From Euzebya sp. (GTDB lineage Bacteria; Actinomycetota; Nitriliruptoria; Euzebyales; Euzebyaceae): 64,000 bases of DNA. Position numbers and translations under genes: made by a program. The DNA is taken from contig NZ_CAXQBR010000013.1 in assembly GCF_964222135.1 (NCBI RefSeq), positions 1 through 64,000 on the forward strand, written 5' to 3'. Numbering within the stretch: the first letter of the stretch is position 1; every line of letters begins with the position of its first letter. Positions 16,378-57,571 of this stretch are shown here, in pieces. Under the pieces are notes generated by a model that ran no database searches, was not told where the DNA came from, and saw nothing but the letters and a program-made list of their open reading frames with translations.

Positions 16378-17400
16378 GTGGAGGTCCACCTGCCGGAGGT
16401 CCTCGCGACGCTGCTGCGCGGAGAGGACCTCGACGACGCGACCACCTCGTCGGTCATGGCCCTCATCATGCGGGGGGACGCGACCACGGCGCAGGTGGCG
16501 GGGCTGCTGATGGCCCTGCGGATGAAGGGCGAGACGGCGGAGGAGATCGCCGGGCTCGTGCGCTCCATGCGCCGCTTCGCGCTGCCGGTCGAGGTCGGCG
16601 GGCCCGTGGTCGACACCTGCGGGACGGGAGGGGACCGGGCGGGGACGTTCAACGTCTCGACCGTCGCGGCGCTCGTGGCCGCGGGCGCGGGTGCGTCGGT
16701 GGCCAAGCACGGCAACCGGGCCGCGAGCGGGCGGTGCGGGTCGGCGGACCTGCTCGAGGGGTGGGGGGTCGTCATCGACCTGCCGCCGGACGCGGTGGCG
16801 CGCTGCATCACCGAGGTCGGGATCGGGTTCTGCTTCGCGCCGCGCTACCACCCGTCCATGCGTCACGTGATCCCGGCCCGGCGGGAGCTCGGCGTGCCGA
16901 CGGTCTTCAACTTCCTCGGGCCGCTGACCAACCCGGCCGGGGCGCAGCACCAGACGATCGGCGTGTCCGACCTGGCGGTGGCCGAGAAGATGGCCGACGT
17001 CCTGGCCCGCCTCGGCACCCGCCACGCGCTGGTCTTCCACGGATCCGACGGGCTGGACGAGCTGACCACCACCGGACCGTCGACGGTCTGGGAGGTCCGT
17101 GACGGCGAGGTGCGCCGCAGCGAGTTCGACCCGGCCGCGCACGGGGTGGCCAGCGCGACGGTGGACTCGCTGCGCGGCGGCGGGCTCGAGGAGAACATGC
17201 GCATCGCCGAGGACGTGCTGCGAGGGGTCGAGGGCCCACCGCGGGACATCGTCGTGCTGGGCGCGGCGGCGGCGCTCCGGGCGGCGGACGTGGCCGATGG
17301 CTGGGACGAGGCGCTCGCGGCGGCGGCGGAGTCCCTCGACTCCGGCCGGGCGCTGGCGGTCCGCGACGACTGGGTCGCGCTGAGCAAGTCGCTGGGCTGA
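16378..17400 (+). CDS. trpD: Anthranilate phosphoribosyltransferase
   Basis: Joins anthranilate to PRPP in tryptophan synthesis. The PRPP-binding signature VDTCGTGGDRAGTFNVST is followed by VAKHGNRAASGRCGSADLLE, then FAPRYHPSMRHVIPARRELGV and FNFLGPLTNPAG, all typical of TrpD. The 340 residues are the usual length. The GTG start at 16378 is only three bases after the preceding receiver-protein stop. No other trp gene is in the window, so trpD is separated from the rest of the pathway. Tandem palindromic repeats follow its stop and may terminate transcription. Confidence 0.93.
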   Translation: MEVHLPEVLATLLRGEDLDDATTSSVMALIMRGDATTAQVAGLLMALRMKGETAEEIAGLVRSMRRFALPVEVGGPVVDTCGTGGDRAGTFNVSTVAALVAAGAGASVAKHGNRAASGRCGSADLLEGWGVVIDLPPDAVARCITEVGIGFCFAPRYHPSMRHVIPARRELGVPTVFNFLGPLTNPAGAQHQTIGVSDLAVAEKMADVLARLGTRHALVFHGSDGLDELTTTGPSTVWEVRDGEVRRSEFDPAAHGVASATVDSLRGGGLEENMRIAEDVLRGVEGPPRDIVVLGAAAALRAADVADGWDEALAAAAESLDSGRALAVRDDWVALSKSLG

Positions 17401-17407
17401 GGTCGTC

Positions 17408-17599
17408 GCTGCGGTCCGGGGCGAAGGGCGACGGGTGACGGGTGGCGCCGAGGTTGGGCGCGATCGGGGCCTCCTTCGCCTGACGGCGCAGTTCGGCGCG
17501 ATCCTGGCTGCGGTCCGGGGCGGCGGGCGCCGGGTGACGCCGAGGTTGGGCGCGATCGGGGCCTCCTTCGCCTGACGGCGAAGTTCGGCGCGATCCTGG
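17408..17599. repeat. Two tandem copies of a 92-100 bp palindromic repeat unit
   Basis: Unit 1 (17408-17507) and unit 2 (17507-17599) share a GCTGCGGTCCGGGG start and a nearly identical core (17450-17507, 17542-17599). Each core is a nested palindrome: outer GATCGGGGCC pairs imperfectly with GGCGCGATC, inner TTCGCC-TGAC-GGCGAA (unit 2; unit 1 has GGCGCA). It lies between convergent trpD and the DUF559-type gene, so it could act as a two-way terminator. Inverted copies lie beyond that gene. Confidence 0.8.
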
Positions 17600-17607
17600 G
17601 AACGGGG

Positions 17608-18498
17608 TCACGCCCCCTTGCGTCGCAGCGCCGCCAGCATCGCGTGGTACATGTCCGCGATCTCCCGGGCGACGGCCTGGACGTCCTCGTCGATGTCGTA
17701 GATGAGGTAGCGCACCGTCGACCACTCCTCGGGCTTGACGGCGCGGTCACGCCTGCGGTCCTTGGCCTGCTGGTCGGGATCGAGGTGGTGGGGACCGTCC
17801 ACCTCGACGTCCAACTTGACCTCGAGGATCGCGATGTCCGCCTGGGCGATGATGCGCCCGGTCCGGTCGCGGATGGGGTACGGCTCGGGGTGGATGGGGA
17901 CGTCCAGCTGTCGGAGCGCACGCCGGAGGTTGCGTTCTCGCTTCGAGTGCGAGGCGTTGCCGCCGAAGTCCGCCAGGACCCGGCGCAGGCGCGCAGACCC
18001 GGGGAACTTGCCCCGCTCATCCGCTGTGGCCGTGATCGCCGCGAGGGTCGTGAGCCGGCCGGCCAGGGCGCGGCTGATTGCGTGGGCCACCGCGCCGTCG
18101 GGGTTCTTGTAGCTGTAGTCGCAGAGGGCGTAGTCGACGGGGACGCACCGGATCCGGTGTCGCACCACGGCGTGCTCGGGCATGTGGCTCGATCGACGCA
18201 CCTCGAAGTCCCGCTCCTTGCGGCTCCCCTTGCCCTCCGGGACAGCCACCTCGATGTGACCAGGGGGCCTGGGCAGGACCCCGAGCGCGTACAGGGCTGC
18301 CTCACCGGTCAGCATCGCATCGTCACCTGCGATGGTGAGCGCGACCGCGGACTGGAACCAGAAGTCGCGCCGGGCTCCGGGTAGGGCGTAGGTCCCCTTG
18401 CCCACGCCCTCGTACTCAGGGCGGTTCGGCAGCACGTCCTTCGTGATGCCGTTGCGATGGAGCTCGAGGGCGGTGACGACGCCGTGCAGGTGGTGCAT
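17608..18498 (-). CDS. AbiEi-antitoxin-like / DUF559 nuclease-fold protein
   Basis: A 296-residue protein. The N-terminal 50 residues (HGVVTALELHRNGITKDV, then GVGKGTYALPGA) resemble the winged-helix domain of AbiEi-type antitoxins. The C-terminal part (about 190-290) resembles DUF559, a Vsr-like restriction-endonuclease fold: ADIAILEVKLDVEVDGPHH followed by DRRRDRAV places acidic and basic residues as in that fold. Actinobacteria carry many such solitary proteins of unknown function. ATG at 18498 is chosen; GTG at 18510 is an alternative. No partner toxin is adjacent. It is bracketed by inverted palindromic repeats, which suggests a mobile or variable cassette. Confidence 0.7.
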   Translation of the reverse strand: MHHLHGVVTALELHRNGITKDVLPNRPEYEGVGKGTYALPGARRDFWFQSAVALTIAGDDAMLTGEAALYALGVLPRPPGHIEVAVPEGKGSRKERDFEVRRSSHMPEHAVVRHRIRCVPVDYALCDYSYKNPDGAVAHAISRALAGRLTTLAAITATADERGKFPGSARLRRVLADFGGNASHSKRERNLRRALRQLDVPIHPEPYPIRDRTGRIIAQADIAILEVKLDVEVDGPHHLDPDQQAKDRRRDRAVKPEEWSTVRYLIYDIDEDVQAVAREIADMYHAMLAALRRKGA

Positions 18499-18574
18499 GG
18501 CGCACAGCACACCGCACGCGCCGACGGAGACGGTTCAGTTATCCACAGCGGACGTCCCGGCGCGTCCGCCCAAC

Positions 18575-18714
18575 GATCGCGCCGAACTTCGCCGTCAGGC
18601 GAAGGAGGCCCCGATCGCGCCCAACCTCGCCGACGCCCGGCGCCGCCCTGCTTCCAGGATCGCGCCGAACTTCGCCGTCAGGCGAAGAAGACCCCGATCG
18701 CGCCGAACTTCGCC
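18575..18714. repeat. Two inverted copies of the trpD-downstream palindromic repeat
   Basis: Copy 3 (18575-18630) and copy 4 (18654-18714) carry the element of 17450-17599 in opposite orientation; copy 3 matches it over more than 50 bases. A further half copy occupies about 18695-18714. They lie downstream of the minus-strand Lrp-type gene and upstream of the DUF559-type gene. Confidence 0.8.
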
Positions 18715-18770
18715 GCCGCCCGCCGCCGCCCGCCGCCCCCCGGCGCCGCCGCCCCGCCGCCCCGCCGCCC
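18715..18770. repeat. CCG/CCGCC low-complexity tract
   Basis: A nearly pure C/G tract built of CCG, CCGCC and CCCCG units runs from the end of the palindromic repeats to the stop codon of the Lrp-type gene. It is a likely slippage-prone spacer. Confidence 0.7.
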
Positions 18771-19064
18771 CTACAACCCCTCCGCGTCCTCGAAGCCCAC
18801 CCCCCACAGCCGCTCGAGGTCCTCCGACGCGTAGGCGCGGAAGGCGATCATCGTGTGGGTGCCGGTCACGCCCTCGACCTTCGCGATCTCGTTGGTGACG
18901 ACGTCGGCGATCTCGTCGTGGGTCCGGACGCGGACCATGGCGACGAGCTCCCAGTCACCGGTCACGGAGTAGACCTCCGTCACACGGTCGATGTTGGCCA
19001 ACGTGGTCGCGGTTTCGGGGATCCGCGCCACATCGACGTGCAGCAGGACGATGGAGGTGATCAC
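18771..19064 (-). CDS. Stand-alone Lrp/AsnC effector-binding (RAM) domain protein
   Basis: 97 residues consisting only of the RAM ligand-binding and oligomerisation domain of Lrp/AsnC regulators: ITSIVLLHVDVARIPETATTL, VTEVYSVTGDWELVAMVRV and VEGVTGTHTMIAF. The DNA-binding helix-turn-helix is absent, as in SraA/AsnD-like small proteins, so it may sense amino acids or modulate a full Lrp partner. GTG at 19064 is chosen because a TATGGT box lies 6 bases upstream; longer in-frame starts run into the opp promoter region. It is divergent from the peptide-import operon, which would suit amino-acid sensing (inference). Confidence 0.85.
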   Translation of the reverse strand: MITSIVLLHVDVARIPETATTLANIDRVTEVYSVTGDWELVAMVRVRTHDEIADVVTNEIAKVEGVTGTHTMIAFRAYASEDLERLWGVGFEDAEGL

Positions 19065-19070
19065 ACCGGC

Positions 19071-19076
19071 ACCATA
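19071..19076 (-). promoter_or_regulatory. Leaderless -10 box of the RAM-domain gene
   Basis: Minus-strand TATGGT ends 6 bases before the GTG at 19064. Confidence 0.45.
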
Positions 19077-19155
19077 TCCCCCCGTGCCGTGGACAGATGG
19101 TCCGTCCGCAACCAGGCGATCACCCCCTGCGACCGCGCGGTGTGCGCACAAAGGA

Positions 19156-19184
19156 TTCACCTCATAGCCATCCGGCGCTAGTCT
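19156..19184 (+). promoter_or_regulatory. opp operon promoter
   Basis: TTCACC (19156-19161), an exact 17-base spacer and TAGTCT (19179-19184). The roughly 80-base leader contains a small inverted repeat (CTACA with TGTAG, about 19196-19215) and an AAGGGAGAG Shine-Dalgarno at 19254-19262. Confidence 0.5.
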
Positions 19185-25296: not shown

Positions 25297-25339
25297 GATC
25301 GCGCCGCACCTCGCCGTGAGGCGAGGCAGGCCCCGATCG
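25297..25339. repeat. Palindromic repeat copy 5 between convergent genes
   Basis: Same element as at 17450 and 18575. The inner stem here is CTCGCC-GTGA-GGCGAG instead of TTCGCC-GTCA-GGCGAA, a compensatory change that keeps pairing. It lies 21 bases after oppF and 15 before the end of the convergent nuclease gene, fitting a two-way terminator. Confidence 0.75.
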
Positions 25340-57498: not shown

Positions 57499-57540
57499 GA
57501 TCGGGGCCCAACTCGCCGTGAGGCGAAAGAGGCCCCGATC
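57499..57540. repeat. Palindromic repeat copy 6
   Basis: Outer arms GATCGGGGCC and GGCCCCGATC pair perfectly (10 bp), with inner TCGCC-GTGA-GGCGA. It lies 31 bases beyond the acyltransferase stop, upstream of gtrA, consistent with a terminator. It is the most symmetric copy in the window. Confidence 0.75.
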
Positions 57541-57571
57541 GTGACCCCGGCGGTCCGCGGCCCGGAGCCGG

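Follow-up and report, generated by a model that had tools for sequence, protein, structure and literature searches.

Inverted copies of private palindromes bracket AbiEi-DUF559 nuclease genes in Euzebya and across its phylum

In lineage after lineage, genes of one bacterial nuclease family lie between copies of a palindrome private to them, a finding that links DUF559, a domain of unknown function, with palindromic repeats and suggests that the AbiEi-DUF559 family is an unrecognised partner of such repeats. The association of the gene with palindromes, the dispersal of the palindromes, the conserved position of the locus and the generality of the arrangement are established by controlled comparisons. 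The locus described here lies between trpD and an Lrp-type gene in a 64,000-nt stretch of the Euzebya sp. genome (the window; G000:C13:1-64000, where G000 is the label of this genome and its assembly size is 5.06 Mb). Its features, and two dispersed copies of the element elsewhere in the window, are as follows.

16378..17400, plus strand: trpD, left neighbour (TIGR01245, 8e-118; synteny, with its place kept in all congeners)
17426..17507, plus strand: palindromic element copy 1, 43-nt core at 17461-17503 (repeat comparison, pattern search)
17518..17602, plus strand: palindromic element copy 2, 43-nt core at 17553-17595 (repeat comparison, pattern search)
17608..18510, minus strand: AbiEi-DUF559 gene, 300 aa, with an AbiEi-like N-terminal part and a Vsr/PD-(D/E)XK-like C-terminal nuclease
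18539..18548, minus strand: DnaA-box-like TTATCCACAG (CTGTGGATAA on the coding strand), in the gap between array and start codon and kept there in congeners
18575..18648, minus strand: palindromic element copy 3, inverted, 43-nt core at 18575-18617 (repeat comparison, pattern search)
18658..18731, minus strand: palindromic element copy 4, inverted, core at 18658-18700 with two mismatches (repeat comparison, half-core search)
18771..19160, minus strand: gene with an Lrp/AsnC-type ligand-binding domain, right neighbour (PF01037, 1e-15; place kept in congeners)
25297..25339, minus strand: solo dispersed copy of the element, with convergent ORFs on either side
57522..57541, minus strand: dispersed half copy of the element

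Only one ORF occupies the trpD-Lrp interval (17608-18510, minus strand), and comparison with orthologues places its start probably at the ATG at 18498 (MHHLHG). To its left, direct repeats at 17426-17507 and 17518-17599 are 94% identical with a spacing of 92 nt, and to its right, those at 18575-18648 and 18658-18731 are 92% identical with a spacing of 83 nt. The left and right arrays are inverted relative to one another and, about 1 kb apart, match with 93% complementarity over 75 nt and 91% over 70 nt, which is far beyond chance. These values bear out a preliminary description of the window, which had reported tandem copies on one side of a single gene, inverted tandem copies on the other and more than 50 matching bases across roughly 1 kb. 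Its report that neither a transposase nor a partner toxin is present likewise holds for the trpD-Lrp interval, from which both a transposase and an AbiEii-type partner are absent; an AbiEii (DUF1814) nucleotidyltransferase toxin is not adjacent to the gene, which lies between trpD and Lrp in 4/4 congeners. Beyond that description, the element occurs genome-wide, and the window itself holds another two copies, of which one is a half copy. Half of the core, CGATCGGGGCCTCCTTCGCC, is found six times in the 64-kb window at up to three mismatches (0.05 expected), and the other half nine times (0.10 expected).

The C-terminus of the encoded protein matches DUF559 (PF04480) at 24.1 bits, above the Pfam cut-off of 20.6, and residues 9-168 match AbiEi-like models from a phage-defence model library, in keeping with the preliminary reading of a single nuclease-fold-like AbiEi/DUF559 gene. 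Family profiles also hit the endonuclease-like protein 3hrl (E 1e-7), with a weak match to PvuRts1I. On an AlphaFold2 model with a mean pLDDT of 90, Foldseek gives matches to AbiEi 6y8q (E 1.8e-5) and Rv2827c (1zel). The C-terminal part matches the catalytic domain of the homing endonuclease I-Bth0305I (3r3p) with a probability of 0.99 and a TM-score of 0.73 on the target, at an E-value of only 0.14; the fold matches to I-Bth0305I, 3hrl and PvuRts1I are of high probability, with E-values of 0.05-0.6. Residues S189, E192, D225, E236, D238, H242, D251 and R267 are invariant in 17 relatives, with E236, D238, H242 and D251 answering to the acidic and His residues expected of DUF559/Vsr-like PD-(D/E)XK nucleases, and this invariance, taken with the predicted fold match, makes an intact Vsr-like active site likely. 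A close-relative scan queried with the window protein alone returned no match; an alignment-based scan did recover relatives.

The core of the element is a 43-nt imperfect palindrome, CGATCGGGGCCT-(23 nt)-GCRCGATC, and it is dispersed and species-specific. A strict pattern matches 41 times in this genome; in the three congeners it matches 30, 15 and 24 times, and in 57 other relatives not at all. A reversed control pattern has no match, and every strict match is exactly 43 nt long, though the pattern permitted 36-50 nt. The two halves of the element mirror each other about its centre, and across 82 distinct copies Watson-Crick pairs fill 73% of the inner-stem cells, compared with 23-45% when the arms are slid by 1-3 positions and with a mean of 66% (maximum 70%) when the 3' letters are shuffled within species. 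Stem covariation is thus real but modest, because conservation within species accounts for much of the pairing. The tandem spacings, compiled by hand, are 72 nt (14 times), 81-83 nt (4) and 92-95 nt (4), in steps near one helical turn. The 72-nt period prompted us to consider a CRISPR-like array, which the near-identical spacers within an array and the palindromic nature of the repeats rule out. Contigs C58 and C61 of this genome both end just past element copies with an identical spacer sequence, and the assembly therefore probably broke at a tandem array.

All three congeners carry an orthologue in the trpD-Lrp interval (51-61% identity), bracketed in each by that species' own version of the element, in arrays of 3+2, 2+2 and 2+4 copies whose two sides are inverted. 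The gene runs in the same direction as trpD in the congeners and in the opposite direction in this genome, with trpD and Lrp unchanged. The most parsimonious account places an inversion between the arrays in the lineage of this genome, a gene flip being the expected outcome if inverted arrays recombined. In one congener (G003, L083:4832-6834), an IS21-type insertion comprising a Mu-type transposase C-terminal domain and IstB interrupts the orthologue; the bracketing arrays and the elements persist despite the split gene, and the insertion may be recent.

In the phylum, a profile search places the AbiEi-DUF559 family in 48 of 150 genomes, with up to 14 copies per genome. Sixty AbiEi-DUF559 loci were taken without regard to repeats, and each was scored by the best local alignment of one flank against the reverse complement of the other. 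A score of at least 36 was reached at 28 of the 60 loci and at 9 of 970 shifted positions in the same loci; at a threshold of 45 or more, the counts were 21/60 and 0/970. Neighbouring genes gave 1/170 against the 28/60 of the AbiEi-DUF559 genes (Fisher p = 3e-18), and together the two controls rule out chance matching of the flanks. About half of the family is without detectable matched flanks. Of the 28 matched loci, 19 have in their arms a palindrome that outscores all of 30 shuffles, with a median span of 46.5 nt, and the sequence of the flanking palindrome varies from locus to locus.

Individual genes in other genomes likewise have a palindrome of their own, unrelated in sequence. The palindrome of the family member in G089 has 30 sites in that genome and none in three others, and the palindrome of G075, found beside the only strong family match of that genome, has 17 sites there and none in the other genomes searched; in both cases, the copies span about 47-50 nt and are almost perfectly palindromic. 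In the Euzebya genome itself, a paralogue on contig C73 is bracketed by a different palindrome, of the CTCAGATCTGAG type, with 30 sites in this genome and none in congeners. The paralogue and the window gene each having their own palindrome, one genome therefore holds two nuclease genes and two palindrome families. Dispersed copies in G089 occupy 10 convergent gaps, 9 co-directional gaps and no divergent ones, with 7 unclear and 1 apparently inside an ORF. Comparison with the congeners of G089 yielded no clean insertion footprint and no empty site with a target duplication; orthologous sites held other palindromes, none, or rearranged neighbours. One orthologous convergent gap in this genus carries unrelated palindromes in two species, none in one and a different insert in another. 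A single convergent intergenic gap (L255 in G203, L258 in G202) holds three unrelated palindromes across three congeneric species. In L256 and L263 (G198 and G199), another palindromic family fills a gap that holds the GAACAAACTGC palindrome in a congener, and L256 has tandem copies of it: GTCGGATGGGGTCAGACCAGATCCGAC.

The bracketing extends to DUF559 proteins outside the phylum. Among the relatives collected by the conserved DUF559 motif are short, mostly alphaproteobacterial proteins with no AbiEi part, one of which scores 101 bits for DUF559. Matched inverted flanks occur at 13 of 33 of these stand-alone genes and at 0 of 615 shifted positions, and the association therefore belongs to DUF559 nucleases and not to the AbiEi fusion alone. 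The link between the element and DUF559 genes that had been raised in the preliminary description is upheld by both gene sets and is statistically very strong. Most of these stand-alone genes use an unrelated CCTTCTCC...GGAGAAGG palindrome, which at many of the loci is turned the opposite way on either side of the gene. In a Beijerinckia locus (L116:2677-5285), nine CCTTCTCC palindromes lie within 2.6 kb, around and inside the called DUF559 frame, and mostly alternate in orientation, reminiscent of BIME arrays.

We consider it fairly probable that these loci represent a REP-like system with a resident nuclease acting on its own palindrome, in which the architecture and its generality, the dispersal and private pairing of the palindromes, and the conserved position and flip of the gene are what we observe, and binding, cutting and copying are what we infer. 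Recognition of a single specific palindrome, about 43-50 nt long, would fall to the AbiEi-like part, and the Vsr-like (DUF559) part would most likely cut or nick DNA at or near it. Repair would copy the palindrome to new sites and homogenise existing copies, rather like homing, which copies DNA by cut-and-repair. The gene would remain in place while only the palindromes spread, and since the bracketing arrays are long inverted repeats, recombination between them could flip the gene. Weighing against this reading are the half of the family that has no matched flanks, the want of a clean empty site among the congeners of G089, the E-value of the Vsr-like fold match and the elements that persist in G003 beside a split gene. 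In a broader form, to which we give an even chance, DUF559 nucleases, whether or not fused to an AbiEi-type reader, may constitute a second class of REP-maintaining enzymes, unrelated to RAYTs, each serving one palindrome family that it would spread or homogenise by double-strand cleavage and repair; such a class could explain many of the orphan palindromic repeats of Actinomycetota and Alphaproteobacteria.

An unlikely alternative is that AbiEi-DUF559 is an autoregulated DNA-binding protein whose dispersed palindromes serve as operators or nucleoid-binding sites, with the nuclease acting elsewhere, for example on phage DNA. AbiEi does bind 23-bp inverted repeats in its own promoters (PMC7319586), the element is of similar size, and the stepped tandem spacings suggest helical phasing. 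Operators would not be expected to follow the distribution seen in G089, where divergent gaps are the one class left empty, and copies also lie directly behind the 3' end of the gene; moreover, DUF559 genes that have no AbiEi part show the same bracketing.

Two further explanations are less probable still, each about as much as the other. The palindromes could be ordinary bidirectional terminators or 3'-end hairpins, with the gene lying between two of them by happenstance, as their hairpin structure, the many dispersed copies at convergent gene ends and the unrelated palindromes in one orthologous convergent gap of G202 and G203 would allow. A gene's two flanking terminators have no need of a common sequence, however, and matched inverted flanks are all but confined to the nuclease genes when these are set against their neighbours, with palindrome families private to genomes and paralogues. 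Alternatively, the palindromes could be non-autonomous mobile elements that owe their movement to some unseen and unrelated transposase, with the DUF559 locus only a favoured landing place. They do resemble small, dispersed mobile repeats that have been amplified locally in tandem, locus-specific spacers included, and motion by the nuclease itself is something we infer. Against this, no Y1 transposase was found in the genome, and landing at DUF559 genes would be required in many lineages, by unrelated palindromes and with the two sides inverted.

Least likely of all is the mobile cassette or defence slot proposed in the preliminary description, to which the inverted repeats around one nuclease gene and the phage-defence origin of the AbiEi models lend some colour: gene and repeats sit at the same trpD-Lrp place in 3/3 congeners, an outcome that the description itself had named as its refutation, and no precise presence or absence of the unit is seen between relatives. 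A partner toxin is lacking, the housekeeping neighbours are conserved, the element is not confined to this gene, and a defence slot finds no positive support. What stands of that description is the link between nuclease and repeat, which is far more general than was suspected; its mobile unit does not, since position is fixed and it is orientation and palindrome sequence that change.

The favoured reading, a resident nuclease acting on its own palindrome, invites comparison with RAYT-REP systems. Two inverted REPs invariably flank a RAYT gene, each REP type generally has a single full-length gene, and movement of the REPtron as a unit is not apparent (PMC2817692, PMC6006769); REPINs form tandem clusters beside their RAYT (PMC3116915). 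The loci described here are alike in having one gene per palindrome family, inverted flanking copies, intergenic dispersal, more than one gene-palindrome pair in a genome, tandem clustering at a locus and a gene that does not travel with the repeats. They differ in that the enzyme is an AbiEi-DUF559 (Vsr-like) nuclease and not a Y1/HUH transposase, and in that the elements are fewer (15-41 in tested genomes) and often near-perfect palindromes of 45-50 nt. A search for the Y1 transposase (PF01797) gave no match in G000 and matches in 5 of 14 control genomes, with no RAYT partner for the element found in this genome, and the conserved GTAG/GTGG tag at the palindrome foot is absent from the listed element starts. 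With the defining enzyme and the tag both absent, the AbiEi-DUF559 unit is no RAYT system by membership and is RAYT-like by architecture.

Resemblance to AbiE type IV toxin-antitoxin systems resides in the N-terminal two thirds of the protein, which are AbiEi-like in sequence and predicted fold, and in the AbiEi operator, whose two 23-bp inverted repeats, 3 bp apart in its own promoter, have a total size close to the median palindrome span found here (PMC7319586). The present loci differ from AbiE in having no adjacent AbiEii toxin, an extra nuclease domain, and palindromes on both sides of the gene and genome-wide. The predicted C-terminal fold matches the catalytic domain of the Vsr-like homing endonuclease I-Bth0305I, with the difference that here there is no intron or intein and the palindrome, not the gene, would be copied. 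The CCTTCTCC palindrome presumably resembles the abundant Rhizobium-type intergenic mosaic repeats and alphaproteobacterial REPs, for which no nuclease partner was found described in the literature searched.

If the enzyme acts on the palindrome, it would provide short repeats with a second means of persisting in bacterial genomes, one that differs in its chemistry, as well as a gene-specific test of what such repeats do. In the literature covered, which placed subscription journals outside its scope, no paper makes a relevant connection between DUF559 and palindromic or inverted repeats, and none connects DUF559 to AbiEi; we regard the novelty of the DUF559-palindrome link as provisional.

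The DnaA-box-like motif upstream of the gene is a further shared feature of window-type loci, on which the argument above does not draw. A TTRTCCACAG sequence or a close variant of it occurs 37-58 nt upstream, on either strand, in the window (18539-18548) and in L032, L033 and L083-L086. The motif is present at window-type loci and weaker farther out in the phylum.
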